Assembly: GCA_947643715.1 (NCBI GenBank) | Contig: CANRXB010000004.1 | Coordinates: 1 to 64,000, forward strand | Length of the DNA stretch: 64,000 bases | Reading direction: 5' to 3' | DNA from: an uncultured bacterium | GTDB taxonomy: Bacteria > Bacillota > Clostridia > Oscillospirales > Oscillospiraceae | Part shown: in pieces, positions 6,637-38,167 of the stretch | Layout: every line of letters begins with the position of its first letter | Numbering within the stretch: position 1 is the stretch's first letter | Notes under the pieces: generated by a model | Seen by the model: only the letters and a program-made list of their open reading frames with translations | What the model was told of the DNA's origin: nothing | The model's database searches: none | Position numbers and translations under genes: made by a program

Positions 6637-6770
6637 ACGTTTACAGCCAGTTCATGAAATCTCGGGGCGATGGGGTATACTACTAAGTAAGATCGCAGTT
6701 CGGGACGCGGAGCGGACCTGCGCTGGGACGCATCGCCGTCCCGCGTCCCCATCAAAGGAGAGTGTAGCTC

Positions 6771-9365
<2,595 letters not shown>

Positions 9366-20113: not shown

Positions 20114-20329
20114 ATGTGTTTTGGTAACAATGGTGGTTTCGGGGGCTGCTGGTGGATCATCATCCTCATCCTGATCCTGTGCTGCTGCTGTGGCAACGGT
20201 GGGAACAGCTGGGGCGGCAACAATTCCTGCTGCTGCTGCTGTGGCGGCAACAACAACAACTGTGGCTGTGGCTGCGGCTGTGGCTGCGGCAACAACAACA
20301 ACTGCGGCTGCAACGACGGCTGCTGCTGA
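20114..20329 (+). CDS. Cysteine-rich small membrane protein (chorion class high-cysteine HCB 13-like)
   Basis: A 71-residue product with about 20 cysteines, many glycines and asparagines. Residues 1-11 are MCFGNNGGFGG, a short hydrophobic helix follows (WWIIILILIL), then CCCC, a CCCCC block, and repeated CG and NNNN blocks to the end. GAGGTGA lies eight bases before the ATG, supporting this strand; a hairpin terminator follows 16 bases after the stop. Proteins with this look are annotated in databases as chorion class high-cysteine protein, function unknown. The cysteines could bind metal or form disulfide cross-links at the cell or spore surface. The opposite-strand frame is low-complexity V/A/T and is judged false. 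Confidence 0.72.
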   Translation: MCFGNNGGFGGCWWIIILILILCCCCGNGGNSWGGNNSCCCCCGGNNNNCGCGCGCGCGNNNNCGCNDGCC

Positions 20330-22459: not shown

Positions 22460-24064
22460 ATGGCCATTGGCACGAGATTCGTTTTCGTCACCGGCGGCGT
22501 GGTGTCCGGGCTGGGAAAGGGCATCACGGCGGCGTCTTTGGGACGCCTGCTCAAGCAGCGGGGACTGCGGGTGCGGGTACAGAAGCTGGACCCCTATCTC
22601 AACGTGGACCCGGGCACGATGAGCCCTTACCAGCACGGGGAGGTGTTCGTCACCGACGACGGGGCGGAGACCGACCTGGACCTGGGCCATTATGAACGGT
22701 TCATCGATGAGAACCTCACGGTCAACTCCTCCGTTTCCGCCGGCCAGGTCTATTGGAACGTGCTCAGCCGGGAGCGCGCAGGGGACTATCTGGGGGGCAC
22801 CGTCCAGATCATCCCCCACATCACCGACGAGATCAAACGGCACATCTACTCCCTGGAGGGCCCCGACGTGGACGTGGCCATCGTGGAGATCGGCGGCACG
22901 GTGGGCGACATCGAGTCCCAGCCCTTTTTGGAGGCCATCCGGCAGGTGGCGGCCCAGCGGGGGCGGCATGATGTGATGTTCATCCACGTGTCCCTCATCG
23001 TGTCCATCCCCGGTTCCGGCGAGCTGAAGTCGAAGCCCACCCAGCACTCGGCCAAGGAGCTGCTGTCCCTGGGCATCCAGCCGGACGTCATCATGTGCCG
23101 CAGCGATGCCCCCATCCCGCAGGAGATCCTGGACAAGATCGCCTTGTTCTGCAACATCCCGGAGGACCACGCCATCCCCAACCTCACCGCCGAGCTGCTC
23201 TACGAGGTGCCGCTGATGCTGGAGCGGGAGGGGCTGGCCGACGTGGTGGTGCGGCGGCTGGGGCTGATCTGCCATGCGCCCGATCTCACTGAGTGGGCCA
23301 CTATGGTCCACCGGGCCCGCTGCCCCAAGGGGACAGTGACGATCGCTCTGGTGGGGAAATACGTGGCGCTCCACGACGCGTATCTCTCCGTCGTGGAGGC
23401 GCTGACCCATGGCGGCATCGAGAACGACGTGTCGGTGGAGGTGCGCTGGGTGGACTCGGAGGAGGTGACGCCTGACACGGTGGGCGGCCTGCTGGCCGGG
23501 GTCCATGGCATCCTAGTGCCCGGCGGCTTCGGGGACCGGGGGGTCGAGGGGATGATCGAGGCCATCCGGTATGCCAGGGAGGAGGGAGTGCCCTTCCTGG
23601 GCATCTGCCTGGGGATGCAGTTGGCGGTGGTGGAGTATGCCCGGAACGTGTGCGGCCTCACGGGGGCCCACTCCAGCGAGCTGGACCCCGACGCCCCGTA
23701 TCCTGTCATCGACCTCATGCCCGGCCAGGTGGGGGTGACCGCCAAGGGCGGTACGATGCGCCTGGGCAGTTATCCTTGCCGTCTGGCCGAAGGATCGCTG
23801 GCGGAGGCGGCCTATGGGACCAGGGAGATCCATGAGCGCCACCGCCATCGTTATGAGTTCAACAACGACTACCGGGAGGCGCTGACGAAGGCGGGGCTGG
23901 TCTTGTCCGGCCTGTCCCCCGACGGGAAGCTGGTGGAGATGATCGAGCTGCCGGATCACCCCTGGTTCGCGGCGGGGCAGTTCCACCCGGAGCTGAAGTC
24001 CCGGCCCAACCGGGCCCATCCGCTGTTCCGGGAGTTCGTCAAGGCGGCGAAAGACCGGGCGTGA
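22460..24064 (+). CDS. pyrG: CTP synthase
   Basis: A 534-residue enzyme that aminates UTP to CTP with glutamine and ATP. The synthetase half (1 to about 265) starts with [20 protein letters not shown], the ATP loop, and contains [20 protein letters not shown] and [11 protein letters not shown]. The glutaminase half has the nucleophile cysteine in [10 protein letters not shown] and the His-Glu pair in [11 protein letters not shown]. Length and order are standard. ATG 22460 is chosen because AAGGAGGG lies six bases upstream and the conserved protein begins there; the frame runs further 5' without support. It is followed by a terminator and is monocistronic. Confidence 0.97.
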
Positions 24065-24121
24065 GCCGTTGGCGCTGTGGTGATGCGGGCCGCAGCGCAT
24101 AGCGGACGTCAGAAGGAGAGA

Positions 24122-24149
24122 GGCCCGGGACGGAGCACCGCCCCGGGCC
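24122..24149 (+). terminator. pyrG terminator
   Basis: GGCCCGGG pairs with CCCGGGCC, and an inner CGG/CCG pair is separated by a single mismatch around loop AGCA. CTTGTTGG follows. The rest of the 367-base gap before the CPBP gene holds only a possible promoter near 24344. Confidence 0.7.
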
Positions 24150-24343
24150 CTTGTTGGAAAGAACGGATCGGGCTCCATGCTCCCGATAGAGGCCGACGGA
24201 TCGATGTGTATGGCCGGCATCCATAAAAACGGATACCAACGACAGACAGATGGATGGATCCTCCTTGTTTCGTCATAACGAACCATCGTAGGGCCGTGGA
24301 TCTGGAGAAAACGACGAATCTTCTCGGCAGCAGATCGTTTCTA

Positions 24344-24374
24344 TTGACCTTGCAGTGGGTGAAGGGTCTATATT
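24344..24374 (+). promoter_or_regulatory. Possible promoter of the CPBP protease gene
   Basis: TTGACC and TATATT are separated by 19 bases, longer than ideal. The position, 58 bases before the chosen ATG, fits. Confidence 0.4.
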
Positions 24375-24431
24375 GATCGTGTTCGATTGAGCGATATGGA
24401 TCGTCTGGGAACGATCGGGAGGAGGATGTTC

Positions 24432-25331
24432 ATGGAACGGAGGAAAAAGATCGTCGCGTTCATCTGCATCGAGTTTGGCCTGGTCATCCTGTGTACCCTG
24501 CCGCTGTTCTTGCTGCGCGCTGAGCCGACGAGTCTGCTGGTGCTCCTCACATCGGTGGTGTTCATGTTCCTGCCTGCAATCTCGACCTTGATCGTGAAGC
24601 GTCTGACCCATGACGAGGGAGGGCTGTTCTTACGCCTGAACATACGCAGGGAATGGAGGCGATACCTGCTGGCGGCATTTCTTCCCGGGGCCTTGGAAGG
24701 GATCGGTGTGATATCTTACTTTTTTGTGTTCCCGGATCATCTGGACCTATCTCTGACCACGATAGAACAGCTCCTCGTCCTCAGTGGACGAGAGGCGGAG
24801 CTCCCGCAGCTCACTGTTCCTGCCGCTATAGGCGTTGGACTGCTCCTTGCGGTGGTAGCGCCATCGATCGTCGTGAATCATATAGCAGCTTTTGGAGAAG
24901 AGATCGGCTGGAGAGGCTTCCTCCTGCCATTGCTGGTAGAAGGGCTCGGCGTGCGAAAGGCGGTCTTGCTGGATGGCATCCTATGGGGGATCGCCCACGC
25001 TCCGCTGGTCTGCTTCGGTCTGAACTATACCGGAGATCATCCGGGTGCGCCTTGGACCGGCATCCTGATGATGATACTTTTCGCGACCAGTACCGGGATC
25101 TTCCTCTCCTACCTGACGCTGAGCTCCAAAAGCATCTTCCCCGCCTGCATCGCCCATGGGGCCATCAACGCTATCCGGGAAGCGCCGCTCCTCATCTGTT
25201 TGAACACCTATAACGCTCTTTTGGGGCCGAAGCCGTCAGGCTTGATCGGTATGACCGGCTTCCTGATCGCGGGGGCTGTCATCTTCATCAAGCCCATCCG
25301 ATCCACGGAGATCGAAGCGTCGGCCGGATGA
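24432..25331 (+). CDS. CPBP family intramembrane metalloprotease
   Basis: A 299-residue protein with about eight membrane segments. The CPBP (CAAX protease and bacteriocin-processing, Abi) motifs are present: FGEEIGWRGFLLPLL with the EExxxR pattern, the histidine in LWGIAHAPLVCFG, and IAHGAINAI. Members cut membrane peptides, release prenylated-type tails, or give immunity to bacteriocins. GGGAGGAGG touches ATG 24426 and is six bases from ATG 24432, so the latter is preferred; a TTG at 24387 is also open. It lies just upstream of an AgrC/AgrA-like kinase-regulator pair, so a role in handling a signal peptide is conceivable but unproven. Confidence 0.85.
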   Translation: MERRKKIVAFICIEFGLVILCTLPLFLLRAEPTSLLVLLTSVVFMFLPAISTLIVKRLTHDEGGLFLRLNIRREWRRYLLAAFLPGALEGIGVISYFFVFPDHLDLSLTTIEQLLVLSGREAELPQLTVPAAIGVGLLLAVVAPSIVVNHIAAFGEEIGWRGFLLPLLVEGLGVRKAVLLDGILWGIAHAPLVCFGLNYTGDHPGAPWTGILMMILFATSTGIFLSYLTLSSKSIFPACIAHGAINAIREAPLLICLNTYNALLGPKPSGLIGMTGFLIAGAVIFIKPIRSTEIEASAG

Positions 25332-25535
25332 GCCGTATGCCGGTGCATTTGGCAGGGTAGGAGGTACAGGGCATTTTAGGAGGCTCGGATGCGCATAACC
25401 CAATCTAGGGATGGGGATCGAGGTGCTAGGAGCGCGAAAGCGTATCCGGAAGCTCGGGAGCCGGAGCTGCCGCCCTTGCAGGGGCGTTGGACGAGCATGA
25501 TGTCTTTGGACAGATCCTCTTCGTGTCATAGGAAG

Positions 25536-25565
25536 TAAGTTTAGGTCGTTGAAATGAAAGTTTGC
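25536..25565 (+). promoter_or_regulatory. LytTR-type direct repeat upstream of the regulator gene
   Basis: TAAGTTTAG (25536-25544), exactly 12 bases, AAAGTTTGC (25557-25565). The first copy fits the LytTR consensus [TA][AC][CA]GTTN[AG][TG] fully and the second at all but the last base. The 21-base period puts both on one face of the helix. The repeat lies 20 bases before the -35 box, as expected for an activator that controls its own gene. Confidence 0.65.
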
Positions 25566-25585
25566 GTCAAATATCCCGTTTCAAC

Positions 25586-25614
25586 TTGAAGATATGGAGA
25601 AAGGATGTTATAAA
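25586..25614 (+). promoter_or_regulatory. Promoter of the LytTR regulator-kinase operon
   Basis: TTGAAG, 17-base spacer, TATAAA. Transcription would start near 25621, leaving a leader of only about 14 bases with GGGGGA as ribosome site. The rest of the gap from 25332 holds the LytTR repeat and one doubtful 49-codon frame (25389-25538). Confidence 0.65.
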
Positions 25615-25634
25615 GGAACGGGGGGAAATATAGG

Positions 25635-26363
25635 ATGAAAGTAGTTATCGTTGAGGACGACATGGTGGCAGCCGCCCAGTTCAAGAATTATCTGGAACGG
25701 TACGGGAACGAGTCGGATGTGGAGCTGGAAGTCACGCACTTTACAGATGCTGAGACGTTTTTGAAGAACTACAAGAAAGAGAGGCCGGCCATCGTTTTTT
25801 TCGATATCAATCTGCCGACGATCGATGGCATGGAGGCCGCGCGCAAGCTGCGTGAGCGCGACACCGCCGTGGTGATCGTGTTCGTTACGAAGATGGTCCA
25901 GTACGCGCTGAAGGGCTATGACGTCAACGCGCTGGATTTTTTGGTCAAGCCCGTCTCCTATGCGGAGTTCAAGATGAAGATGCGCCGGGCCGTGAACGTG
26001 GCCAGGGCCAATGAGACCAAGGCCCTCTATGTCCCGGTGGACAGCGGGTTCTACCGCGTCCCCTCGGACAAGATCGTGTTCGTGGAGGTGGAAGGGCACC
26101 GCCTCAAGTACCAACTCGTGGACGGCGTGGTGGAGGCCCGCGGGAGCCTCTCCGACGTGCAGGAGAAGCTGGCGGGGCACGGGTTCCTGCGTTGCAATAG
26201 CTGTTATGTCGTGAACGTGAAATATATCGAGTTCGTGAAGGGGTACGATCTGCACATCAACGGATATAAACTCAAGATAAGCCATCCGCGCAGGAAGGAG
26301 TTCATGAGGCAGCTCATGGACATCTACGCAGGCAGCTTCAGGGAAGATACGGAGGACGGCTAA
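25635..26363 (+). CDS. LytTR (AgrA-like) response regulator
   Basis: A 242-residue regulator. The receiver (1 to about 120) has VEDDMVAA, phosphoacceptor D57 in VFFDINLPTIDGMEA, and LVKPVSYAEF. The LytTR DNA-binding domain spans about 138-238, with KIVFVEVEGHRLKYQLVDG, RCNSCYVVNVKYIEFVKGYD and KISHPRRKEF. LytTR proteins bind pairs of 9-bp direct repeats about 12 bases apart; such a pair lies upstream of this gene and a weaker one upstream of 27876. It is three bases ahead of the kinase gene. The family controls quorum sensing, exoproteins and surface functions. Confidence 0.92.
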   Translation: MKVVIVEDDMVAAAQFKNYLERYGNESDVELEVTHFTDAETFLKNYKKERPAIVFFDINLPTIDGMEAARKLRERDTAVVIVFVTKMVQYALKGYDVNALDFLVKPVSYAEFKMKMRRAVNVARANETKALYVPVDSGFYRVPSDKIVFVEVEGHRLKYQLVDGVVEARGSLSDVQEKLAGHGFLRCNSCYVVNVKYIEFVKGYDLHINGYKLKISHPRRKEFMRQLMDIYAGSFREDTEDG

Positions 26364-26366
26364 GGG

Positions 26367-27713
26367 ATGGACATCTCAACAGTACTGCTGTGGTATTTCT
26401 ATATCCTGCCGCCTTTCGTCCTCCAGCTCGTCGTGACGGAGGCGATGTTCTGTTTCCGTTTGAAACGCAATCCATGGTTCCCGCTCCGCTTGACCGCAGG
26501 CGTCCTGATCTGCGCGGGCGCTCTTTGGTTCGCGGCCTGTGCGATCGCTTTCCTGGGCGCTGTCGGCGCGCACGGGGTGTGTATCGCGCCCGTCTATCTG
26601 GCGATCTTCCTGCTGACGGTGGGCGTGATGAAGATCTGCTTCGAAGAATCTTTCTCCACCCTCCTGTTCTATGGGATCGCGGCCTACGCCACCCAGAACC
26701 TGGCCTACCGCGTCTACAATATGTTCGAGATGCTCGGGCTGATCTGGCGGCTCAACATGCGCATCGGCATCTGGCAGCTCTATCTGCCCTTCCACCTGCT
26801 GGCCTGGTGCGTGGTGTTCGTGGCGGTGGCGGCGGTCGTGTACGTGTCCTTCACCCGCCCCATGATCAGGCGGGACGTGGCCCATCTGCGCGACCTCAAG
26901 GTATATGCCTTGTCCTTCGTCGCGCTGGTCATCACCACCTTCCTGTCCTCCTGGACGGACGCTTACAGTGCGGAGAGCCAGATGCTCACGTTGATCGCCT
27001 ATCTGTTCTCCTGCTGCTGCTGCGTGTTCATCCTCGCCCTGCAATCGGGCATGTTGCACACGGAGGGGATCAAGCAGGACCTCGAGGTGGTGAAGCGGCT
27101 TTGGGAACAGGACAGGAAGCAGTATGAGATCTCCCGTGAGAACATCGATATCATCAACATCAAATGTCACGACCTGCGCTTCCGCCTGCAGTCCCTGCGT
27201 ACTGCGGAGGGGGAGGTCTCCAGGGAGGAGCTGGAGGAGATCGAGAACGCCATCACCATCTACGACAGCCATATCACCACCGGCTGCGAGGCGCTGGACA
27301 CCATCCTCACGGAGAAGAGCCTGTTCTGCAGCAAGAACGATATCAAGTTCACCTGCATGGTGGACGGCAGCAAGCTCTCCTTCATCGTGCCCTCGGACAT
27401 CTATTCGCTGTTCGGGAACATCATCTCCAACGCTGTGGAAGCGGTGCAGAAGGTGGAGGACAAGGAATACCGTCTCATCACGCTGGAGGTCAAGCAGGTA
27501 GGCGACATGCTGCTCGTGGCGATGGAGAACTATTTTTCCGGTTCGCTGATCGTCCGGGCGGGGATGCTCGTGACCAGCAAGGGGAACGAGATCGATCATG
27601 GCTATGGGATGAAGAGCATCCAGATGTTGGTAAAAAAGTACGGCGGAGACATGGATGTGGATGCAAGAGACAATATTTTCACGTTGAAACTGCTCTTCCC
27701 CCTCGCGAGCTGA
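26367..27713 (+). CDS. AgrC/HPK10-like GHKL sensor histidine kinase
   Basis: A 448-residue kinase. Residues 1 to about 230 carry six to seven membrane segments with little outside sequence, as in AgrC-type peptide receptors. A helical linker then leads to the phosphoacceptor helix with H268 in INIKCHDLRFRLQ, followed by a GHKL ATPase domain with LFGNIISNAVEAVQK and DHGYGMKSIQML. A typical HPK10 box has HD followed by aromatic-x-N; here HDLRF departs slightly. It is the partner of the LytTR regulator upstream. The membrane part would sense a small or peptide ligand; no AgrD/AgrB-like gene was found nearby. A terminator follows. Confidence 0.88.
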   Translation: MDISTVLLWYFYILPPFVLQLVVTEAMFCFRLKRNPWFPLRLTAGVLICAGALWFAACAIAFLGAVGAHGVCIAPVYLAIFLLTVGVMKICFEESFSTLLFYGIAAYATQNLAYRVYNMFEMLGLIWRLNMRIGIWQLYLPFHLLAWCVVFVAVAAVVYVSFTRPMIRRDVAHLRDLKVYALSFVALVITTFLSSWTDAYSAESQMLTLIAYLFSCCCCVFILALQSGMLHTEGIKQDLEVVKRLWEQDRKQYEISRENIDIINIKCHDLRFRLQSLRTAEGEVSREELEEIENAITIYDSHITTGCEALDTILTEKSLFCSKNDIKFTCMVDGSKLSFIVPSDIYSLFGNIISNAVEAVQKVEDKEYRLITLEVKQVGDMLLVAMENYFSGSLIVRAGMLVTSKGNEIDHGYGMKSIQMLVKKYGGDMDVDARDNIFTLKLLFPLAS

Positions 27714-27730
27714 GGGCGGCGGGGCCATTC

Positions 27731-27758
27731 ACCCGCGGGCGGCCGCGGGTGTTTTTTT
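27731..27758 (+). terminator. Terminator after the LytTR kinase gene
   Basis: ACCCGCGG, loop GCGG, CCGCGGGT followed by GTTTTTTT. A strong factor-independent terminator that separates the regulator operon from the exported-protein operon. Confidence 0.9.
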
Positions 27759-27767
27759 ATAAAAAAG

Positions 27768-27796
27768 TAAGAATAGGCTCCACGATCGAAGTTTAG
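27768..27796 (+). promoter_or_regulatory. Second LytTR-type site, upstream of the exported-protein operon
   Basis: GAAGTTTAG (27788-27796) matches the LytTR half-site at all but the first base and shares the 11-mer AAGTTTAGGTC with the site at 25537. A degenerate partner TAAGAATAG lies at 27768-27776, spaced 20 rather than 21 bases. The second half-site starts 19 bases before the -35 box, against 29 in the other promoter, a difference of one helical turn. Confidence 0.5.
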
Positions 27797-27806
27797 GTCA
27801 AACCCG

Positions 27807-27835
27807 TTGACGGCGCTCCTTTTTACATATAGTAT
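27807..27835 (+). promoter_or_regulatory. Promoter of the lipoprotein/GH3 operon
   Basis: TTGACG, 17-base spacer, TAGTAT (27830-27835); an alternative TATAGT at 27828 gives a 15-base spacer. It reads into the gene at 27876, whose ribosome site AAGGAGG lies about nine bases before the ATG. Confidence 0.6.
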
Positions 27836-27875
27836 GGATGAGCCAACAGCATGAAAAGAAGGAGGTCATATCCCA

Positions 27876-29336
27876 ATGAAAAAACCAGCATCTCTTTTCC
27901 TTGCAGCGCTCATGCTTTTCGGCATGGCCGGTATGTTCTCGGCGTGCGGAGCCCCTGCTGATACGCCGTCCACACCGGGCACGACGAGCACGCCATCCTC
28001 GGAGAGCGCTGGGGCGGAAATGAATGCGACCAAGGGCTTCATCATCGTCCAGGGCTACGAGTGGGGCCCCGCGATCCCCAAAGTCGTCCTCGAGTTCCCT
28101 GAGGACGTGACCGGCATCGCTAACGATACCTTCGAGGTCAGCTTCGGTTCCACCAAGCGCACCGTGAAAGAGGTATACAACTCCAACGAGGACGGCGAGC
28201 GTTCCGATTCCGCATCCAAGTACGTGACCATCGAGATGACGGTCAAGTCCAATGAAGCGAGTCCCTTTACTTATCAGGATGCCAACATCTGGCTGGACAG
28301 CATCCCCTTCAAGGTCACGGTCGCCCAGGGCAAGTCCTTCACGGTGGGCGGCACCACCTATCAGGGCGGGGACAACTACTCCTACGCCGCTACGGCTGCG
28401 GACCGGAAGGTCCCCCAGACCGCGAGCTGGGTGAAGGACACCGTCGAATATAAAGAAGAGGGGAAGGACATCACCCTTTCCCGCGCGTCCTGGGCTCCCG
28501 AGGGCGCGGACAGCGACAGCGGCAAGAACCCGCTCATCATCTGGCTGCACGGCGCGGGCGAGGGCGGGACCGACATCGACATCGACCTGCTGGGCAACGA
28601 GGTGACGGCGCTCACCACTGAGAACGAGACCAACGTACAGAAGTACTTTGCCACCGACGGGCTGGCCGGCGCTTACGTGCTGGCGGTGCAGACCCCCACC
28701 ATGTGGATGGATGCGGACGGCACCGGTACATATAACAACGAGGGCGCCGGCACCGGGAAGCAGGAGTCCTGGTACACCGGAGCGCTCTGGAAGGCGATCA
28801 CCACGTACGTGGAGAGCAACCCGGACGTGGACACCAGCCGGATCTATCTCGGCGGCTGCTCCAACGGCGGCTACATGACCATGAACATGATGTTCGAGCA
28901 CGGGGACTACTTCGCGGCGTTCTACCCCATCTGCGAAGGATACCTGAACCAGTGCATCTCGGAGGAGATGATCGCGCAGGTGAAGGACTATAACATCTGG
29001 TTCCTCCAGTCTGCGGACGATGCTACGGTGTCTCCCGTCGATTATGGTATGCCCACCTATGTGCGGCTGCTGGAGGCCGGCGCTCAGAACATATGGTTCA
29101 CCCTGACCGACAAGGTGCGCGGCACCGACGATCCCGAGCCCTGGAGCTGGACCGGCACCGGCACCTACGACGGACACTGGAGCTGGATCTACGCGTTCAA
29201 CGACCAAGTGACCACCCGCTTCGATCCCACGACGATCACGTCGGTGGACGACCTCGTCCCCGAGAACTGCACCGTCACGGACGTGAACCTTTGGGCGTGG
29301 ATGTCCGAGCAGCGCCTGGCGGGGAGCACGGAGTGA
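27876..29336 (+). CDS. Exported lipoprotein with esterase/peptidase-like alpha/beta hydrolase domain
   Basis: A 486-residue lipoprotein: signal peptide with lipobox FSAC (cysteine 24), a threonine/serine/proline linker to about residue 45, an N-terminal beta-rich domain to about 190, then an alpha/beta hydrolase. The hydrolase has NPLIIWLHGAGEGG (oxyanion strand), nucleophile S329 in GGCSNGGYMTMNM, aspartate 381 or 382 in SADDATVSP and histidine 434 in YDGHWSW, giving a full triad. The layout resembles secreted esterases related to feruloyl or acetyl-xylan esterases and prolyl-oligopeptidase-like proteins. It is first of three exported proteins and probably removes acyl groups from, or cuts, an outside polymer. 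The substrate is unknown. Confidence 0.8.
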   Translation: MKKPASLFLAALMLFGMAGMFSACGAPADTPSTPGTTSTPSSESAGAEMNATKGFIIVQGYEWGPAIPKVVLEFPEDVTGIANDTFEVSFGSTKRTVKEVYNSNEDGERSDSASKYVTIEMTVKSNEASPFTYQDANIWLDSIPFKVTVAQGKSFTVGGTTYQGGDNYSYAATAADRKVPQTASWVKDTVEYKEEGKDITLSRASWAPEGADSDSGKNPLIIWLHGAGEGGTDIDIDLLGNEVTALTTENETNVQKYFATDGLAGAYVLAVQTPTMWMDADGTGTYNNEGAGTGKQESWYTGALWKAITTYVESNPDVDTSRIYLGGCSNGGYMTMNMMFEHGDYFAAFYPICEGYLNQCISEEMIAQVKDYNIWFLQSADDATVSPVDYGMPTYVRLLEAGAQNIWFTLTDKVRGTDDPEPWSWTGTGTYDGHWSWIYAFNDQVTTRFDPTTITSVDDLVPENCTVTDVNLWAWMSEQRLAGSTE

Positions 29337-29400
29337 GCGTCTGCCCTTAGGGCATAGAAAAGAGAGCAGAGATCGAAAACGATATGTTGCCGACCGGCTT

Positions 29401-29440
29401 TGCCGTATGGAGGGATCGTGAAAAAGATCTCCATACGGCA
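29401..29440 (+). other. Intercistronic hairpin between the two lipoprotein genes
   Basis: A perfect 12-bp stem (TGCCGTATGGAG with its complement) encloses a 16-base loop. No T-run follows, so it is more likely an mRNA stability or partial-termination element than a full stop. The surrounding gap (29337-29487) ends in TAGGAGGA, the ribosome site of the next gene. Confidence 0.55.
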
Positions 29441-29487
29441 TGGTCGTGGCATATAAAATTTTATTCAATCGTAGGAGGAAAAAGGAA

Positions 29488-30111
29488 ATGAAGAAGTTGA
29501 ACAGAGCTTTGGCAGCGGTGACCCTTTCCGCGACGCTCATCGCCTCCCTTGCCGGCTGCGGTGGCTCCGCCCAGGACTATGTGTTCGAGGCTGAGAAGGC
29601 CGAGCTGTCTGCGTCCTGCATGGTCGAGACCGGTCCCGAGTACACCACCGAAGTGACCACCACCGAGGTCACCCAGGTCGGTTACTTCACCACCGCAGGC
29701 GAGACCATCACCTTCAAGATCAATTCGTCCAAGGACTGCTCCGCCACCCTCACCCTGCGCGCGGCTTCCGCGGTCGCCACGTTCTCCGACCCCGTGGTCT
29801 TCGAGGAAGTGGACATGTCCAAGGGCGAGCATGCGGTCCTCTCCGTCAACGGCACCGAGTGCAAGATGGAGGGCGTCCTCCCCGGCCTGGAGGCTCCCAT
29901 GGATTGGGAGGTCTTCTCCGCTTATTATAAGCACTACGGCACTGCTACCGCGAAGATCGACCTGAAGTCCGGCGAGAACGTCATCGTGCTCACCTCTAAG
30001 GGCTATAACGGCGGTGCGGGCGGCATCAACGTGGACAAGATCACCATCAACGCCGCTGCTGAGCTGACCTGGAACGAGACCGACAACTCCGACCGCGTCC
30101 CGCAGCAGTAA
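29488..30111 (+). CDS. Lipoprotein with CBM6/35-like beta-sandwich domain
   Basis: A 207-residue lipoprotein with a textbook signal peptide ending LAGC (cysteine 24). The mature part looks like a single carbohydrate-binding-type beta sandwich: DYVFEAEKAELS near its start, YFTTAGETITFKINSS, then TAKIDLKSGENVIVLTSKG and GGINVDKITI at the end. The opening EAE and the closing NVDKI pattern are usual in CBM6/CBM35 modules. No catalytic domain is present. It lies between the esterase-like lipoprotein and the GH3 protein and is likely to hold a glycan at the cell surface for them. The ATG at 29488 has a GTAGGAGGA site upstream. Confidence 0.78.
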   Translation: MKKLNRALAAVTLSATLIASLAGCGGSAQDYVFEAEKAELSASCMVETGPEYTTEVTTTEVTQVGYFTTAGETITFKINSSKDCSATLTLRAASAVATFSDPVVFEEVDMSKGEHAVLSVNGTECKMEGVLPGLEAPMDWEVFSAYYKHYGTATAKIDLKSGENVIVLTSKGYNGGAGGINVDKITINAAAELTWNETDNSDRVPQQ

Positions 30112-30135
30112 GACGAGCGTTACATCGCCCGATCG

Positions 30136-30174
30136 GGCGTCTCCCGCCGCAGCGATGCTGCGGCGGGAGACGCC
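30136..30174 (+). other. 18-bp perfect hairpin between the CBM lipoprotein and GH3 genes
   Basis: GGCGTCTCCCGCCGCAGC, loop GAT, and the exact complement. There is no T-run after it. It could be a barrier to 3' exonucleases that raises the amount of the upstream lipoprotein mRNA over that of GH3, or a weak terminator. Sixty bases separate it from the GH3 ATG. Confidence 0.7.
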
Positions 30175-30234
30175 GAGACTGAGCAGGCATCCACCTTATG
30201 ATCACGAAAAGACCATTATATAGGAGGGGTTTTC

Positions 30235-33200
30235 ATGGCAAAGGGCAAAAAGAAGAAAATGAGTGCAAAGACGTTCACCGCGATCGTTGCGCCTCTCTTG
30301 GCGATCCTTTTGGCATTCTCCATCGCGCTGCCTGTCGTTTCGATCTCCAGATTCGACCTCGTGTTCCGTGACATCTTCGGCGAGGCGAAATCCAGCAATA
30401 GCGGCACTGATGCCACCCAGGGCGTCGATGCGACCTACTACACCAGGGATTTCACCGATTCCAAGGAGCTCCAGGCGGCCGAGCAGGCTTACACCCGCAA
30501 GGCTGGTGCGGAGGGCTTCGTGCTCCTGTACAACCGCGCTGAGGACGGCAAGGGCCTCCCCGTGGCCAGCGGTTCCAAGCTCAGCCTTTTCTCCGCCTCT
30601 TCCGTGGACCTTCTGGCCGGCGGTACGGGCTCCGGCGTGAGCACCATCTCCAGCGATATGAAGACCGCTCTCACCGAGCAGGGCTTCAGCGTGAACGAGG
30701 CGCTCTGGAAGTTCTATAGCGACAACCATGGCACCTACACCCGCGGCGGCGGCGCTCTCATGTACGGCGGCGCGGAGGACTGGTCCATCAAGGAGGCCCC
30801 CATCTCCGCCATCCCTGAGAACGCCAAGAGCGAGGCGGCCGGCACCACTCCCGTGTTCTTCATCGCCCGGACGGGCGGCGAGGGCCGCGACCTGGGCCGT
30901 TACATGGGCGATTGGACCAGCGTCGCAGAGGACAAGGAGAAGCACTATCTGGAGCCTGACTCCGTGGAGCTGGGCGTCATCCAGTACCTCAACGACAACT
31001 TCGACAACGTGATCATCGTCGTCAACACCAACAACGCGTTCGAGCTGGGTTGGGTGGCGAACTATCCCAACATCACGGCGGTCCTGTGGGCGCCCGGCGC
31101 CGGCGGCGATACCTGCCGTTCCATCGCGGACGTGCTCAGCGGCAACATCAACCCCTCCGGCCATCTCGTGGACACCTTCGCCTATGACGCGTTCTCCTCT
31201 CCCGCCATGCAGAACATGGGCGACATGATGCTGGTCAACGGTGGCAACGACGTCGAAGCCGGCGTTTTCTACGACGAGGGCATCTATGTCGGCTACAAGT
31301 ACTATGAGACCCGTTATTTCGACAAGGTCTTGGGACAGGGCAATGCAGGCGACTATGACTATAACAGCGTCGTGCAGTATCCCTTCGGCTATGGCATCTC
31401 CTACACCACTTTCGAGTGGTCCGATTTCAAGATGGGCGATATGGACGAGAATGGCGACATCCAGATCCAGGTCACCGTCAAGAACACCGGCTCCGTCGCG
31501 GGCAGGGACGTGGTGCAGGTCTATCTGAACGCTCCCTACACCGAGTATGACAAGACCAATCACATCGAGAAGTCCGCTGTCACTCTGGTCGGCTTCGAGA
31601 AGACCGGCGACATCGAGCCCGGTCAGTCCGAGACCGTCACCGTCACTGTGAACCGCAAGGACTTCATCTCCTACGACGACGTGAAGGCCAAGACCTACAT
31701 CCTCGAGGCCGGCGATTATCTGCTCACTGCGGCTGAGAACGCTCACGCTGCTGCCGACAACTTCCTGGCCTATAATGGACAGGCAGTGGACGGCCTGGGC
31801 CTGCTGGGCGGCGCTGACAGCTCCTTCGTGGATAAGTGGACCTACAGCTACTCCGACAACGGCGGCGTGGACAACGTGACGTATTCCAAGTCTGCATCCG
31901 GCGCGGAGATCACCAACCAGTTCGACCACGCGGTCTATGATGAGCTGACTCCCCGTGACAAGTACCTCACCCGTCAGGACTGGGTGGGCACCTTCCCTGT
32001 GACCCACGGCAACCAGGACAGCAAGCGGGCCAGCGGCTTCAGCGAGAAGAACGGCTACACCTGGGAGGTCGAGATCTCCGATACCATCCGGGACAACATC
32101 AAGGCGATCGGCGCCGGGGCGTCTCTCAACCCCATGACGGAGGAAGAGGCTGCCAAGCTGGCGGGCGAGTTCGGCAAAGAGGGCGGTCCTCAGCTCGTGG
32201 ACTTCCGCGGCAGGGACTACGATGAGGTGGATCAGGAAGGCGGCTGGGATCAGCTCGTCGATCAGATGACCACCAGCGAGATCAAGCAACTGATCCGCAA
32301 CGCCGGTTATCAGACCCTGGGTTCCACTGCCATCAACAAGCCTCGGGCCATCGACTTCGACGGTCCTTCCGGTCTGAACGAGGGCGGCGTTTCCCATGAG
32401 CCGTACTCCATCACCTATCCCTGCGCCGCCAACCTGGCCGCGAGCTGGGATCGTGAGAACTCCCGCCTCCATGGTTATTATGTGGGCGAGGACGGTCTCG
32501 CGTCCGACGGCAACTGGGGCAACCACACTTACATCGGCATCATCTCCGGCTGGTATGCTCCCGCTATGAACATCCACAGGACCCCGTTCGCTGGGCGTAA
32601 CTTCGAGTACTATTCCGAGGACGGCTTCATGTCCGGCGAGCTGGCTCGTGAGGCGTCCGTGGCCTGCTCCGAGAAGGGCGTGTACGCTTACATCAAGCAC
32701 TTCGCCCTGAACGACCAGGAGGATCACCGCAGCCATGCTGCGACCTTCGCCAACGAGCAGTCCATCCGTGAGATCTACCTCAAGCCCTTCCAGACCTGCA
32801 TCGAGGAGCGCGGCACCAACACGATCAAGGTCCAGAACTTCGACGAGGAGACTGGCACCTTCACTCAGAGCGAGGTCGAGATCCCTGCGGTCATGGCCGT
32901 CATGACGGCGTTCAACCGCATCGGCTGCACTTGGGCCGGCGGCAACTACAACCTCATCACCGGCGTCCTGCGCAACGAGTGGGGCTTCGACGGTTCCGTC
33001 ATCACCGACTACGACAACGGCGGCGTCATGGATACGGAGCAGTGCATCCGTGCCGGCGGCGACATCAAGCTGACCGCCTATGGCTCCAACGCGCAGTTGG
33101 ATATGGAGAACCCCTCTTCTCAGTACTTTGCCCGTGAGGCTGTGAAGCACGTGCTCTATACCACGGTGAACAGCAACGCCATGAACGGCATCGTGCACGG

Positions 33201-33336
33201 CGTCACCGTTTCCGAGCTCCCGTTCGCGAACTACTACTACATCCTCATCGGCGAGGGCCTGGTCGCGGCCGGTCTCATCGCCTGGGGCGTCGCGGCGATC
33301 GTGCTGCGCTGGAAGAAGGAGAAGCAGGGCGCCTAA
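30235..33336 (+). CDS. Membrane-anchored glycoside hydrolase family 3 with swapped domain order
   Basis: A 1033-residue protein. A lysine-rich start is followed by a membrane segment (about 14-37). Next come the GH3 C-terminal alpha/beta sandwich (about 70-390, with SDMKTALTEQGF, VVNTNNAFELGW, NPSGHLVDTFAYD, YPFGYGISYTTFEW) and an Fn3-like domain (about 410-510). The GH3 TIM-barrel domain comes last (about 690-960, with YIKHFALNDQE, SIREIYLKPF and nucleophile D925 in GSVITDYDNGG), and a second membrane helix ends it (about 1000-1022) before KKEKQGA. The usual GH3 order is barrel first, so this is permuted, as reported for some rumen clostridial beta-glucosidases. Both ends should be inside and the enzyme outside. 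It probably trims beta-linked sugars. Confidence 0.88.
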   Translation: MAKGKKKKMSAKTFTAIVAPLLAILLAFSIALPVVSISRFDLVFRDIFGEAKSSNSGTDATQGVDATYYTRDFTDSKELQAAEQAYTRKAGAEGFVLLYNRAEDGKGLPVASGSKLSLFSASSVDLLAGGTGSGVSTISSDMKTALTEQGFSVNEALWKFYSDNHGTYTRGGGALMYGGAEDWSIKEAPISAIPENAKSEAAGTTPVFFIARTGGEGRDLGRYMGDWTSVAEDKEKHYLEPDSVELGVIQYLNDNFDNVIIVVNTNNAFELGWVANYPNITAVLWAPGAGGDTCRSIADVLSGNINPSGHLVDTFAYDAFSSPAMQNMGDMMLVNGGNDVEAGVFYDEGIYVGYKYYETRYFDKVLGQGNAGDYDYNSVVQYPFGYGISYTTFEWSDFKMGDMDENGDIQIQVTVKNTGSVAGRDVVQVYLNAPYTEYDKTNHIEKSAVTLVGFEKTGDIEPGQSETVTVTVNRKDFISYDDVKAKTYILEAGDYLLTAAENAHAAADNFLAYNGQAVDGLGLLGGADSSFVDKWTYSYSDNGGVDNVTYSKSASGAEITNQFDHAVYDELTPRDKYLTRQDWVGTFPVTHGNQDSKRASGFSEKNGYTWEVEISDTIRDNIKAIGAGASLNPMTEEEAAKLAGEFGKEGGPQLVDFRGRDYDEVDQEGGWDQLVDQMTTSEIKQLIRNAGYQTLGSTAINKPRAIDFDGPSGLNEGGVSHEPYSITYPCAANLAASWDRENSRLHGYYVGEDGLASDGNWGNHTYIGIISGWYAPAMNIHRTPFAGRNFEYYSEDGFMSGELAREASVACSEKGVYAYIKHFALNDQEDHRSHAATFANEQSIREIYLKPFQTCIEERGTNTIKVQNFDEETGTFTQSEVEIPAVMAVMTAFNRIGCTWAGGNYNLITGVLRNEWGFDGSVITDYDNGGVMDTEQCIRAGGDIKLTAYGSNAQLDMENPSSQYFAREAVKHVLYTTVNSNAMNGIVHGVTVSELPFANYYYILIGEGLVAAGLIAWGVAAIVLRWKKEKQGA

Positions 33337-33499
33337 GGCATCCCGTATCTCCCTGAATGAAATGTAGTCTATGTATGTCATGTCCTGCCATCGCGATCGA
33401 TGGTCTGTCCCGTGAGGAAGCCTAGATGAGATGCATGGTGGCCTTTAGGGTCGGAGTTTTGGGCTTGATATGCTAGACGATACCTCCATCCATCAGAGG

Positions 33500-33533
33500 A
33501 AGGCGCCGGGGAGCGTAAGCTCTCCGGCGCCTT
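33500..33533 (+). terminator. Terminator after the GH3 operon
   Basis: AAGGCGCCGG with its complement, an inner GAGC/GCTC pair and loop GTAA, then CTTTC. The gap from 33337 to here holds nothing else that I recognise. Confidence 0.7.
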
Positions 33534-33540
33534 TCGACTA

Positions 33541-33586
33541 AGTCACAGGGCGTGTCCGCCGTTCCCGGAGGACACGCCCTGTGACT
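33541..33586 (-). terminator. Hairpin after the ABC exporter operon
   Basis: A perfect 17-bp stem (AGTCACAGGGCGTGTCC with its complement) encloses a 12-base loop, 36 bases past the ABC gene stop on the minus strand. No long T-run is present. Confidence 0.65.
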
Positions 33587-33621
33587 GCTTTCAAGTGGGG
33601 TGGTGGATGAGCGATTGACGC

Positions 33622-35511
33622 TCATCCCTCCTCCTTCTGATAGTACTGGGCTTGTGCCTCCCAGAGCGTCCGATATTTGCCGTTCGTATCCACCAGTACG
33701 TCGTGGACGCCCTGCTGCACCACTCGGCCCTGGTCGAACACAGCGATCTCATCGCAGAACCGGCAGGAGGACAGCCGGTGGCTGATATAGATGGCGGTCT
33801 TGTCCTCTACGATGTCGTTGAATTTGCTGTATACCTCGGCCTCCGCTTCCGGGTCCAGGGCGGCCGTGGGTTCGTCCAGCACGATGAAGGGCGCGTCCTG
33901 GTACAGCACCCGGGCCAAGGCGATCTTCTGGGCCTCGCCGCCGGAGATCTCCACTCCATCGTCCTCGAAGTCTCGATACAGGCAGGTGTCCAGTCCTTTG
34001 GGGAGCTCGGCCAGCCGCCCCCCGAAGCCCGCCCGCTTCAGGCATTCCTCTGCCCGCTCCCGGTCATATTCTTCTGCCGCGGCCACGTTTTGCCCCAGGG
34101 GCTGAGCCAACAGGCGGAAGTCCTGGAACACCACGGAGAACAGGGCGAGGTAGTCGCCGTACCGGTATTTGCGGATGTCGATGCCGTTGAGCAGGATTTC
34201 TCCCTCGGTGGGGTCGTACAGGCGGCACAGCAGCTTGATGAAGGTGGTCTTGCCCGAGCCGTTCTCTCCCACCACGGCCAGCCGCCGGCCCACGGTGAAC
34301 TTCATGGACACATGGCGCAGCGCCCACGTGTTCGTACCGGGATACCGGAAGGACACGTCCCGGAACTCGATCTCGTACTTCCGGTCGGAACGCTTCTCGG
34401 TGGTGAGGCTGCCTTGATACATCTTATTGGGGATATCCAGGAACCGATAGGTCAGTTCCAGATAGGGGGCGTTGCTCCGCAGCTCGCCTGTGATCTCCAG
34501 CAGATCGGTCAGCCCTCGGGCTAGTCCCGCCAGCGCACCCACGTACTGGGTGACGGAGCCCACCCCGAAGGCCCCGCCCAGGGCCTTCAGCCCGGCGAAC
34601 AGGTAGATGACACCTATGAATGCCTGGGACACCGCCCCTGCGGCGGCGGCGCAGGCCCCCATGGGCCCCCGGCCCCACCTGCCGATGGAGGAGTGGGGGC
34701 CGAAGGAGCTCTCACTATCCATCTCTCTGCTTCCGGAGTGCTCCAAAAATTCGTCTTGGGAATAGATACGGATGTCCGTCCCCCGCTGACGCTCGGCCAT
34801 GGCGATGAAGTAAAAGAAGGAGAAGCCCCGATTGCCCGCCGCGCCGTCGTATCTCCCCCAATAGGAGTTCGACTTGTTCGACAGCGCGCCGGAGAGCAGG
34901 ACCGACAGCACCAGCAGCCCTACCATCCCCGCCAGACAGAGCGGGTGGTCGAGCCAGGCCAGGGAGCTGCCTTCGGGCACCGGCATGATGAACAAGCTCA
35001 CCGACAGGACCGCCGCGCCCAAAATGCGGAACACCGCGCCCACGGCCTGGGAGAAGAGCATGTACAGCTTGTTCAGCCCCCAGCCGTTCCACTGTCTGGC
35101 CTGCTGGATCTGGGTGAACAGAGCTTGGTTCTTGGGATCGTCCACATCACTGAAGTCCATAGCCAGCAGTTTTTCAAAGAAGATGCTGTTCCATGTGATC
35201 CACTGGTGGCCGCGCCGCATGGTCTCGTCCCAGCACCGGGTCGCGGCCAGCAGCGTCCCCACCGCCGCGGTGGAGGCCAGCAGGGCCGCCAGCATGGTCC
35301 AAACCTGCTCCGGGGCCCCGCCCCCGGCAATGGCGTTCACCAGCCGCGCGGTGAAATACAAGGGCAGATAGGGAGCCAGGGCCTCTGCCGCCCGCTGCGC
35401 TCCGGCGGCGATCAAGATCTCCGGCTCGACCCTCCACCAGATGGCCAGGCCCCGGCGGCTGTAGGCCATCACCTTCCGGAAGGAGAGGCGCTCCTTTTTC
35501 GCGTCATTCAT
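33622..35511 (-). CDS. ABC exporter half-transporter (second subunit)
   Basis: A 629-residue fusion of a six-helix membrane domain (about 35-330) and an ATPase domain (about 370-620). It has Walker A VGENGSGKTTFIKLL, signature EISGGEAQKIALARVL, Walker B FIVLDEPTAALD and the switch histidine in IYISHRLSS, all intact. It pairs with the next upstream gene, whose stop it overlaps by eight bases, so the two very probably form a heterodimer. There is no C39 peptidase domain, so any peptide cargo would be cut elsewhere. AAGAAGG lies eight bases before ATG 35511. Being downstream of a LytTR/GHKL pair suggests peptide or toxin export or self-protection. Confidence 0.87.
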   Translation of the reverse strand: MNDAKKERLSFRKVMAYSRRGLAIWWRVEPEILIAAGAQRAAEALAPYLPLYFTARLVNAIAGGGAPEQVWTMLAALLASTAAVGTLLAATRCWDETMRRGHQWITWNSIFFEKLLAMDFSDVDDPKNQALFTQIQQARQWNGWGLNKLYMLFSQAVGAVFRILGAAVLSVSLFIMPVPEGSSLAWLDHPLCLAGMVGLLVLSVLLSGALSNKSNSYWGRYDGAAGNRGFSFFYFIAMAERQRGTDIRIYSQDEFLEHSGSREMDSESSFGPHSSIGRWGRGPMGACAAAAGAVSQAFIGVIYLFAGLKALGGAFGVGSVTQYVGALAGLARGLTDLLEITGELRSNAPYLELTYRFLDIPNKMYQGSLTTEKRSDRKYEIEFRDVSFRYPGTNTWALRHVSMKFTVGRRLAVVGENGSGKTTFIKLLCRLYDPTEGEILLNGIDIRKYRYGDYLALFSVVFQDFRLLAQPLGQNVAAAEEYDRERAEECLKRAGFGGRLAELPKGLDTCLYRDFEDDGVEISGGEAQKIALARVLYQDAPFIVLDEPTAALDPEAEAEVYSKFNDIVEDKTAIYISHRLSSCRFCDEIAVFDQGRVVQQGVHDVLVDTNGKYRTLWEAQAQYYQKEEG

Positions 35512-37387
35512 CCTCCACACCTTCTTTCCCTGCTCCTGCGTCCTGCGGGCGGGGGAGCAGATCGTCCGCAGACTGACTGTAATACTTGCTCTGGATGTCG
35601 AAGAGATAGGCGTACCGTCCGCCGGCCTTGAGCAGTTCCTCGTGGGTGCCCTCCTCGGCGATGCCGCCGTCCTCGATGAGCAGCACCCGGTCGCAGAACC
35701 GGGTGGAGGCCAGCCGGTGGGAGATATACACGCTGGTGCGGTCCCCCGTCAGGTCGCTGTACTTCTGGTACAGGTCGCTCTCCGCGATGGGGTCCAGGGC
35801 GGCGGTGGGCTCATCCAGCACCACCACCGGCGCGTCTTTGTACAGGGCCCGGGCCAGCATCAGCCGCTGCATCTGCCCGCCGGACAGTTCTACGCCGTCC
35901 AGATACACGTTCCGGCCCAGGTGAGTGGCCTCCTTTTGGGGGAGCCGGCGTATCTTGTCCGCCACGCCGGCCCGTTCCAGGCAGTCCCACATCCGGGGCA
36001 GATCCACCTTCTCCGCCGGGACTTGGGCCACGTTCTCCGCGATGGTCCCCGCCAGCACGGAGAACTGCTGGAACACGGCGGAGAAATGCTCATAATAGTC
36101 GCGGCGGTCGTACTGGCGGATATCCTTCCCGTCCAGCAGCACCTGGCCCTGCGTGGGGTCGTACAGGCCGCACAGCAGCTTGATGAGGGTGGTCTTGCCC
36201 GCGCCGTTCTTGCCCACCACCGCCAGCTTCTCGCCGGGGTGGATGATGAGGTCCACATGGGACAGGGTGTCGTTCTGGGCGCCGGGATAGCGGAAAGACA
36301 CGTCCCGCAGCTCCAGCTCATACAGGTGATCTTCCTTCACGGGCAGGGGCTCGCCGTCGGAGAAACGGAACATCTCCGGGATTTCCTGGAATTCCCGCAG
36401 GGTGGACAGCTCCATGCTCTGCCGGTGGAGCTGTGCCAGTTGCTTGAAGATCCCGGTCACCCATTGGCTGAAGCCGCTCACTGCGGTGAAGTACAGCACG
36501 AACTGGGCCGCGTTCAGCTCCCCACGCAGGGCCATGGCGATGAGCAGGCCATAGGCCGCGCCGTTGCGCAGCAGGGCCAACGCCGTGTCCAGCAGGTCGG
36601 CCCACATGTCGTGCCGGAAGGCTTTGGCGAAGAAGTCCTGCATCAGCCGGACGTACTTGCCGTACAGCTCGGTGAGCCAGGGGCCGATGCCGAAGATGCG
36701 GATGTCCTTGGCCAGCTTCATGTCCCGGCTGCGAAAGACCGCATAGTCCGCTTTGTGGAGGAGGGCGGCCTCCTCGTCCCGGCGGCGGTAGCGCCAGGCG
36801 CGGATGGGCTCTCCGGCGAAGTAGCTCGCCGTGGACAGAGCGGCGCACAGCAGCGCCACCCACGGCCCCACCTGAGAGAGCAGCAGCAGGTAGATGACGA
36901 AGCTGATGACGTTGGTGAGCAGCTCCACCATGGTGTTCCAGATGGCCTCCCCGGCGTCGCTGTTGCTGTCCAGGCACTTACTGGCCTTCCCCATCCACTT
37001 GATATAGTCCGGGTCCTCGATGTGGGGGAAGCTGGTCCGGCAGAAGGTCATATGCAGGTCCAGGCACAGCCTGCTGCGCACCAGGACGCGGCCGAAGAGG
37101 GCATTGGTGTCCAGATAGCCCCACAAGGCGCGCACCGCCACCATCCCCAGGGTGAAGCAGGCGATCATGCTCACCAGCTCCCAAGGGCCGGCGCCATTTT
37201 CCAGCGCCGTCAGGATGGCGGGCACCACGAACAGCTCCAACAGGCTGGCTGTCACGCCGCACAGGACGATGCCCGCCGCCACGCTCAGTACGCCCTTGGA
37301 GCCCTGCCACGCCCGGCGGATCATGAAGGCGCAGTTGGAGGCCATCCCATAGGCGGGCCTTCGCGTATCGGTCTTTTGTTTTTCCAT
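35504..37387 (-). CDS. ABC exporter half-transporter (first subunit)
   Basis: A 627-residue exporter subunit: basic leader, membrane domain at about 30-320, ATPase domain at about 360-600. Motifs are Walker A VGKNGAGKTTLIKLL, signature ELSGGQMQRLMLARAL, Walker B VVVLDEPTAALD and YISHRLAS. Both this and its partner keep catalytic residues, so neither site is degenerate. GAGGTGAG lies just before ATG 37387. It is separated from the upstream kinase gene by a strong hairpin, so expression may be lower than, or separate from, the regulators. Cargo is unknown. Confidence 0.87.
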   Translation of the reverse strand: MEKQKTDTRRPAYGMASNCAFMIRRAWQGSKGVLSVAAGIVLCGVTASLLELFVVPAILTALENGAGPWELVSMIACFTLGMVAVRALWGYLDTNALFGRVLVRSRLCLDLHMTFCRTSFPHIEDPDYIKWMGKASKCLDSNSDAGEAIWNTMVELLTNVISFVIYLLLLSQVGPWVALLCAALSTASYFAGEPIRAWRYRRRDEEAALLHKADYAVFRSRDMKLAKDIRIFGIGPWLTELYGKYVRLMQDFFAKAFRHDMWADLLDTALALLRNGAAYGLLIAMALRGELNAAQFVLYFTAVSGFSQWVTGIFKQLAQLHRQSMELSTLREFQEIPEMFRFSDGEPLPVKEDHLYELELRDVSFRYPGAQNDTLSHVDLIIHPGEKLAVVGKNGAGKTTLIKLLCGLYDPTQGQVLLDGKDIRQYDRRDYYEHFSAVFQQFSVLAGTIAENVAQVPAEKVDLPRMWDCLERAGVADKIRRLPQKEATHLGRNVYLDGVELSGGQMQRLMLARALYKDAPVVVLDEPTAALDPIAESDLYQKYSDLTGDRTSVYISHRLASTRFCDRVLLIEDGGIAEEGTHEELLKAGGRYAYLFDIQSKYYSQSADDLLPRPQDAGAGKEGVEDE

Positions 37388-37417
37388 GTTTCTCACCTCG
37401 TGTGATACCATAGCACG

Positions 37418-37446
37418 AAAGCCCCCGGCCGTGTGGGCCGGGGGCT
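37418..37446 (-). terminator. Hairpin between the soluble kinase gene and the ABC genes
   Basis: On the minus strand AGCCCCCGGCC, loop CACAC, GGCCGGGGGCTTT. It may end or lower transcription before the ABC genes. TATGGT further on (about 37409-37414) could be a -10 for them. Confidence 0.6.
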
Positions 37447-37473
37447 GGATCGTCGCTTCTGGGGGCTGGATCG

Positions 37474-38154: not shown

Positions 38155-38167
38155 GGCGTTCCCCTCC

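Follow-up and report, generated by a model that had tools for sequence, protein, structure and literature searches.

A predicted self-activating LytTR switch with paired operators ahead of a putative surface beta-glucoside cassette in an uncultured Oscillospiraceae bacterium

In the 64,000-nucleotide window analyzed here (positions 1 to 64,000 of contig CANRXB010000004.1, from an uncultured bacterium of the Oscillospiraceae), the interval 25536–33336 likely encodes a positively autoregulated two-component switch for the digestion of beta-glucosides or beta-glucans at the cell surface. The + strand of this interval carries five genes: a LytTR response regulator (25635–26363), an adjoining GHKL sensor kinase (26367–27713), an esterase lipoprotein (27876–29336), a small lipoprotein (29488–30111) and a domain-swapped glycoside hydrolase of family GH3 (30235–33336). 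A relay of the membrane sensor and its DNA-binding partner probably activates its own genes and the neighboring genes for surface sugar enzymes. An initial annotation, made from the letters of the DNA, had given the genes and their coordinates correctly and had read them as a LytTR-controlled operon. This observation is confirmed in a form stronger than the original claim, and the reading is strengthened by a footprint conserved in relatives, a joint change of regulator and operators, and a third site in the genome.

Both transcription units begin with a direct repeat followed by a promoter, and a terminator-like hairpin with a 9-bp stem and a T run (27730–27758) lies between them. Operator 1 (25536–25570), before the regulator gene, consists of TAAGTTTAG-12 bp-AAAGTTTGC, with 21 bp from start to start, and the regulator–kinase promoter TTGAAG-17-TATAAA (25586–25614) lies 20 bp after its proximal 9-mer. 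Operator 2 (27768–27801), before the exported-protein operon, consists of TAAGAATAG-11 bp-GAAGTTTAG, with 20 bp from start to start, and the operon promoter TTGACG-17-TAGTAT (27807–27835) lies 10 bp after its proximal 9-mer. The candidate operators thus show the form predicted for LytTR sites (9-bp direct repeats 11–13 bp apart, about 10 bp upstream of the −35 element), with the regulator promoter one turn further away. As had been proposed, candidate sites for a LytTR regulator are present at both promoters: the shared 11-mer AAGTTTAGGTC is found at 25537 and 27789 and nowhere else in the 2.63-Mb assembly, and the pattern AAGWWTAGG, 10 to 13 bases, AAGTTT matches the genome exactly twice, at these same operators. 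The site before the exported-protein promoter, described at first as a single half-site, is in fact a full direct repeat; an exact-seeded repeat search detects operator 1 and misses the more divergent operator 2. On a matrix trained on 15 sites from eight other-species loci, with the window and the effector site of locus L128 excluded, the two operators score 38.2 and 31.2, compared with 13.4 for the next separate site of the window and a maximum of 13.5 in 10 simulated 64-kb sequences (first-order). The promoters had also been called good sigma-A-like promoters. A generic sigma-70 scan found 3 where 2.8 were expected, which is not above chance, and listed the promoter at 27807 but not that at 25586; the promoter calls therefore rest on conserved spacing.

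To place these sites among relatives, a GH3-alignment scan of a one-genome-per-species collection confirmed 274 stretches, the best of which were returned as 78 loci. By record title, these belong to Oscillospiraceae, Gemmiger, Lachnospiraceae, other Clostridia, a few Bacilli/Erysipelotrichaceae, Olsenella, Thermophilibacter and Tractidigestivibacter. From 79 regulator–kinase pairs, 75 remained after duplicate removal, and 57 systems, drawn from the 78 loci, ten others and the window, were kept for trees and counts; the 18 pairs dropped had no GH3 scoring above 900 within 4.5 kb, and distant GH3 types are thus under-represented. The initial annotation had suggested a search of relatives for such repeats before orthologous operons, and both operators, together with their geometry, are kept in eight loci of other species. 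With the window, these form nine systems that fall into one clade of the regulator tree (SH-aLRT 98; 57 rows, quick search), and all nine carry window-type (class A) operators at both promoters. Leave-one-out scores were 21.0–39.3 for all 18 promoters, with the near kin L138/L139 and L131/L136 excluded from each other's training, whereas in the 48 other systems no window-type score exceeded 9.6 upstream of the regulator or 14.8 downstream of the kinase. Moreover, the observed score was not reached in any of 200 shuffles of each of the 18 regions; the region before the L131 regulator came closest (24.3 versus 30.7). The shift of ten bases, or one helical turn, between the two promoters is likewise conserved: the gap from the proximal 9-mer to TTGACG is 10 bp at the effector promoter in 9/9 loci, and that to the best −35 at the regulator promoter is 20–21 bp in 9/9 loci, the −35 being that of the best-scoring promoter within 40 bp of the operator. 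The −35/−10 spacers in the nine loci are 16–18. Discrimination between systems came solely from class-specific matrices; a generic LytTR consensus, scanned over the 75 pairs, gave top scores of mostly 13–16 of 18 everywhere.

The closest comparison is with a congener, G021 (locus L082), whose cassette is 89% identical to that of the window in GH3, 73% in the esterase and 84% in the carbohydrate-binding module (CBM)-like small lipoprotein, with a regulator only 35% identical. The GH3 proteins of the window and G021 are sisters in the GH3 tree, and the regulators of the two belong to different clades. G021 carries a second operator type (class B) at both promoters, common to four relatives of its regulator, in which AAAGTTGCGGAACCGACCGAAAAAGTTTTG follows the kinase gene and a partner sequence precedes the regulator gene; the five systems that have this type form a clade (SH-aLRT 100). 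On matrices from the four regulator relatives, the G021 operators score 40.1 and 31.6, and the next systems 9.5 and 9.4. The window-type operator had no match in G021 at fewer than three mismatches, and at three mismatches there were 3 matches versus 5 for a reversed-pattern control. Operator type thus tracks the lineage of the adjacent regulator, not the enzyme cassette. Furthermore, the regulators differ in a stretch of the LytTR domain that we take, by analogy with AgrA, to contact DNA: it is SHPRRK in the window regulator, SRMRKK in that of the congener and SRPRRA in nine of ten aligned regulators of a third clade. Because a different regulator and different operators accompany an 89%-identical GH3, the sequences indicate that the GH3 cassette was retained while its regulator, its kinase and both operators underwent a joint change.

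A third target was found on contig C64 of the window genome (L083, 5027–7972), where the window esterase has two paralogues in tandem (81% identity) that lie behind an operator of the same type. This operator scores 22.9 on the other-species matrix, the best among 13 further stretches of the window genome (next, 15.1), and is followed after a 10-bp gap by a TTGACG-TATAAT promoter. In the whole genome, the operator with its −35 occurs without mismatch solely here and at 27789.

The regulator and kinase have the features of a LytTR/GHKL two-component system. Both domains of the regulator exceed their Pfam cut-offs (receiver Response_reg, 70.2 bits; LytTR, 53.6 bits). The kinase has a HATPase_c_5 domain (75.7 bits) and six hydrophobic stretches in residues 5–225, and its His268, Asp269, Asn351 and Asn355 are invariant in 23 aligned kinases. 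The esterase and the small protein are predicted lipoproteins, each with a hydrophobic start followed by an LFSACG or LAGCG-like box. The esterase combines an EstA Ig-like domain with an alpha/beta hydrolase; its nearest solved structure, 3doh, is an EstA-type esterase with the same Ig-like domain, to which the window protein adds a lipoprotein signal. For the small lipoprotein, the Pfam CBM_6 score is below the cut-off (23.1 versus 28.9). Its structural model (mean pLDDT 86, 14 sequences) resembles CBM35 and CBM6 structures in Foldseek, the best being the CBM35 2w1w (E 1.5e-7; TM-score 0.74 by target and 0.48 by query length), and by this model it is a CBM35/CBM6-type beta-sandwich with putative carbohydrate binding. 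Beyond the window genome, a search of 118 relatives recovered it in two, strongly in G021 and as a weak partial match in G064, and it is thus no guide to the wider family. The GH3 protein places its C domain first, then Fn3, then the N domain, with both GH3 domains above the Pfam cut-off. The solved GH3 structures 5k6l and 5wug align with it in this C-domain-first order, and the window protein adds a hydrophobic helix at each end (residues 17–35 and 1005–1023), which supports the double anchoring that had been proposed for the operon of exported proteins. Unlike their solved counterparts, the window esterase and GH3 are encoded in one operon. Glu216 and Asp925 of GH3 are invariant in eight sequences and align with motifs of the beta-glucosidase 2x40; presumably these positions are the catalytic acid/base and nucleophile motifs. 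By domains and motifs, GH3 is a predicted beta-glucosidase that would hydrolyze beta-glucosides. An AlphaFold model of the whole protein had a mean pLDDT of 38 (eight sequences) and was not used.

From these sequence-based features (genes, predicted topology, operators, conservation, pairing with regulator lineage and the third site), we infer binding, activation rather than repression, the ligand and the substrate as follows. The signal sensed by the membrane GHKL kinase would come from outside the cell; a beta-glucoside or beta-glucan, through a soluble product or its aglycone, is the most likely source. On sensing this signal, the kinase would phosphorylate the LytTR regulator. The regulator would then bind the direct repeat, two 9-mers 11–12 bp apart, at two promoters. 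At its own promoter this would give positive feedback; at the second it would activate the esterase–CBM–GH3 operon from a site 10 bp upstream of the −35, like other LytTR-activated promoters. Site position is the reason for proposing activation at both promoters and positive autoregulation of the regulator operon. The regulator probably also activates the two distant tandem esterase paralogues. At the cell surface, the esterase would deacylate the polymer, the CBM lipoprotein would hold it, and the twice-anchored GH3 would act at the membrane to free terminal glucose. A hydrolysis product may serve as the ligand. The suggestion in the initial annotation that the module is glycan-sensed is plausible, with a putative ligand.

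Among the 60 loci with 6 kb or more of upstream sequence, 52 have a regulator and kinase ahead of GH3, on the same strand and within 8 kb, a count that omits 16 short-flank loci without the pair as well as L107 and L109 (less than 6 kb, pair present), with which it becomes 54/62. The kinase precedes the regulator in L178 and L179, and another GH3-type gene intervenes between the pair and GH3 in these two loci and in L150. Both GH3 helices are present in 53 of 57 systems, the exceptions being L098, L133 and L118 (cut by contig or stretch ends) and L129. Between kinase and GH3, ten systems encode an esterase and a CBM lipoprotein, 25 a GH16, one a CBM-like protein alone and 21 none of these. In the window genome, 6 of 16 LytTR genes lie, in pairs or as single regulators, beside a GH3-type gene (the one in the window, two on contig C31 and one each on C16, C13 and C30; a copy on C1 was viewed in a 3-kb stretch only). 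The copy on C16 (L085, 3981–10001) comprises a LytTR regulator, a kinase, a Hydrolase_4-type esterase lipoprotein, a 202-aa lipoprotein with no Pfam match, and GH3. In L098, a lipoprotein-like gene with BspA-type leucine-rich repeats (5931–7703) follows a further LytTR–kinase pair.

Several points weigh against the proposed switch. The nine loci are partly dependent, as L138/L139 and L131/L136 are near kin, and the lowest score (21.0) belongs to the effector site of L128, which was kept out of all matrix training. The sister placing of the window and G021 GH3 proteins has a FastTree support of 93, not starred. Eight of the 60 loci (L137, L141, L145, L146, L148, L164, L173 and L174) have no upstream same-strand pair, although in L141, L164 and L173 a pair is present downstream or on the other strand. 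Activation is argued from site position, and the joint action of esterase and GH3 on one polymer is an assumption. Product uptake is left unaccounted for, as no transporter is encoded between 25536 and 33336.

The neighbors of GH3 in relatives bear on the substrate. Among the 25 GH16 systems, 15 have a GH3 that is 73–82% identical to that of the window and ten a GH3 that is 43–46% identical. Two GH16 proteins tested (L097 and L100) each match the NCBI model for the beta-glucanase BglS twice, at 468.8 and 468.9 bits against a cut-off of 300, and BglS is an enzyme of mixed-linkage glucan breakdown. These neighbors and matches suggest beta-glucan or beta-glucoside oligosaccharides as the substrate, and the esterase, with 3doh as its nearest structure, suggests that the substrate is acylated. 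Alternatively, the enzymes might trim a self-made glucan in remodeling of the envelope or exopolysaccharide. LytTR regulators govern exopolysaccharide in other systems, and a membrane GT2 synthase (EpsU-like below the cut-off, distantly cellulose synthase-like) lies between kinase and GH3 in 11 of the 57 systems, in each case accompanying one of the 25 GH16 genes. However, the window operon encodes no synthase, and the tested GH16 proteins, which exceed the BglS cut-off, match the exopolysaccharide-linked GH16 model ExoK below its own (287.9 versus 350 bits). We therefore consider remodeling rather unlikely, and digestion of an outside polymer remains preferred.

Similarly, the initial annotation had raised quorum sensing, in which the kinase would detect a secreted peptide and the operon would serve a density-dependent surface program. 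AgrCA is one of the LytTR and GHKL pairs of comparable shape, and a gene for an Rce1-like CPBP protease lies just upstream (24426–25331). Short open reading frames (ORFs) before the regulator are also alike in class-B loci and in three pairs of class-A loci; a comparison of 194 small ORFs from 14 loci gave 30 such hits. However, the window contributes to none of these hits, and none joins a class-A to a class-B locus (AgrB and AgrD were not sought by profile). Most fall in the final 200 bp, and there they may come either from shared ORFs or from the conservation of the operator and promoter DNA itself. In addition, the regulator scores 46.9 bits on the AgrA equivalog model against an NCBI cut-off of 400, and relatives often carry GH16 glucanases beside GH3 (25/57). 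Collectively, these results leave quorum sensing improbable and the claim unsupported. It is more improbable still that the sites serve another regulator, the adjacent pair being incidental: the genome does encode sixteen LytTR domains that share a broad consensus, but operator type follows the adjacent regulator, and G021, in which a near-identical cassette is joined to a different regulator, carries a different operator at both promoters.

We know of no name for such a system, in agreement with the initial annotation. However, the pairing itself had been noted in 2010 for Butyrivibrio proteoclasticus B316, where, in the part of that account dealing with PUL7, 21 and 33, LytTR regulators stand beside secreted GH3 proteins with a C-terminal transmembrane helix and the sensory proteins are expected to detect carbohydrate linkages (PMC2914790). 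Compared with the window, that part of the account has no operators, N-terminal anchor or esterase–CBM cassette (PMC2914790). The LytTR Regulatory Systems (LRS) of Streptococcus mutans, in the section concerned with their sites, have 9-12-9 direct repeats near the −35 with a bias to 10 bp, and positive autoregulation is shown there for HdrR (PMC6193735). The window resembles them in direct repeats of such spacing about 10 bp before the −35; in contrast, an LRS is described there as a LytTR protein with a membrane inhibitor, whereas the window encodes a response regulator with a receiver domain and a GHKL kinase (PMC6193735). One Gram-positive polysaccharide utilization locus (gpPUL), Ros-7, is listed with a LytTR response regulator and a histidine kinase, and the window likewise has a regulator beside glycan enzymes; the gpPUL definition, as worded in that excerpt, demands a transport system, which the window operon lacks, the nearby ABC pair being on the other strand (PMC5320581). 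For mixed-linkage glucan use by Blautia producta, the passages concerned describe other regulators and cytoplasmic GH3 proteins (PMC10318527). Operators of the window family were not found described in the open-access literature searched. AgrCA of Staphylococcus aureus also has a GHKL kinase partner and controls its own operon. Its LytTR regulator acts on direct repeats upstream of two promoters, as proposed for the window, but the −35/−10 spacers given in the part of the source on these promoters are 18 and 20, whereas both window promoters have 17 bp (PMC4227749). Moreover, no peptide gene was recognized in the window system. Collectively, the regulator–GH3 pairing was known before, while the control sites and the joint change of sensor and sites look new.

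With these results, the 2010 remark on LytTR regulators beside membrane GH3 becomes a rule that names its operators and can be tested, and it applies to gut bacteria that are mostly uncultured and about whose control of glycan use little is known. In addition, a single cassette on which regulator and operators have changed in nature offers a ready comparison for LytTR DNA specificity.

The gaps between the exported-protein genes contain RNA hairpins. In the window these lie at 29389–29449 (z −3.9 for 29340–29487) and at 30136–30174 (18-bp stem without a T run; z −5.4 for 30112–30234), and a further strong hairpin lies 3′ of the operon (33498–33535; z −6.6 for 33490–33545). An Rfam scan of 24000–35000 gave no match. 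Twelve relatives with an esterase–CBM–GH3 cassette, eight of class A and four whose contig ends before the whole regulator–kinase pair, have hairpins in both gaps (L122, L123, L125, L127–L132, L136, L138 and L139; for example, L131:7083–7145 and 7906–7957). The esterase–CBM hairpin has a 14-nt loop, GAGTCGTGATGGTA in 10 of 12, one letter off in L130 and two in L122, on a varying stem. Across 11 loci (10 distinct, L122 omitted), 8 of 12 stem pairs are changed on both sides and 90.8% of cells pair, compared with 34–49% in slid registers; shuffles reached the observed both-side changes, pairing and covariation score in 0/500, and the pair types in 39/500. The CBM–GH3 hairpin has the loop RCATCACG in 12/12, with a run of at least 5 T within 15 nt downstream in 10/12, and resembles a terminator. 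Both loops share the 7-nt complement CGTGATG/CATCACG, which could allow a kissing interaction spanning the CBM gene. Of 191 loci, 11 contain the first motif, AGTCGTGATGG, and 12 the second, GCNCATCACGGC, each in single copy except for a second copy in L125. The strong window hairpins are without these conserved loops, and Rfam matched only tRNA in five hairpin relatives. As a speculative extension with a low probability of being right, clostridial and related gut bacteria might hold an interchangeable cartridge of kinase, LytTR regulator and paired operators that is swapped as a whole onto conserved surface cassettes with a doubly anchored GH3 at their core; GH3, or its product at the membrane, would be the local signal to its own kinase, and in some lineages a hairpin pair with complementary loops would set the dose of CBM and GH3.

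Elsewhere in the window, two ABC transporter genes (33622–37345) lie on the − strand with a second GHKL kinase–LytTR pair upstream (whole region 33622–38866). This pair (kinase 37474–38154, regulator 38168–38866) is about 5 kb away and has a different partner type. Finally, positions 20114–20329 hold a 71-aa ORF rich in Cys, Gly and Asn, with a hydrophobic stretch and coding-like codon use.

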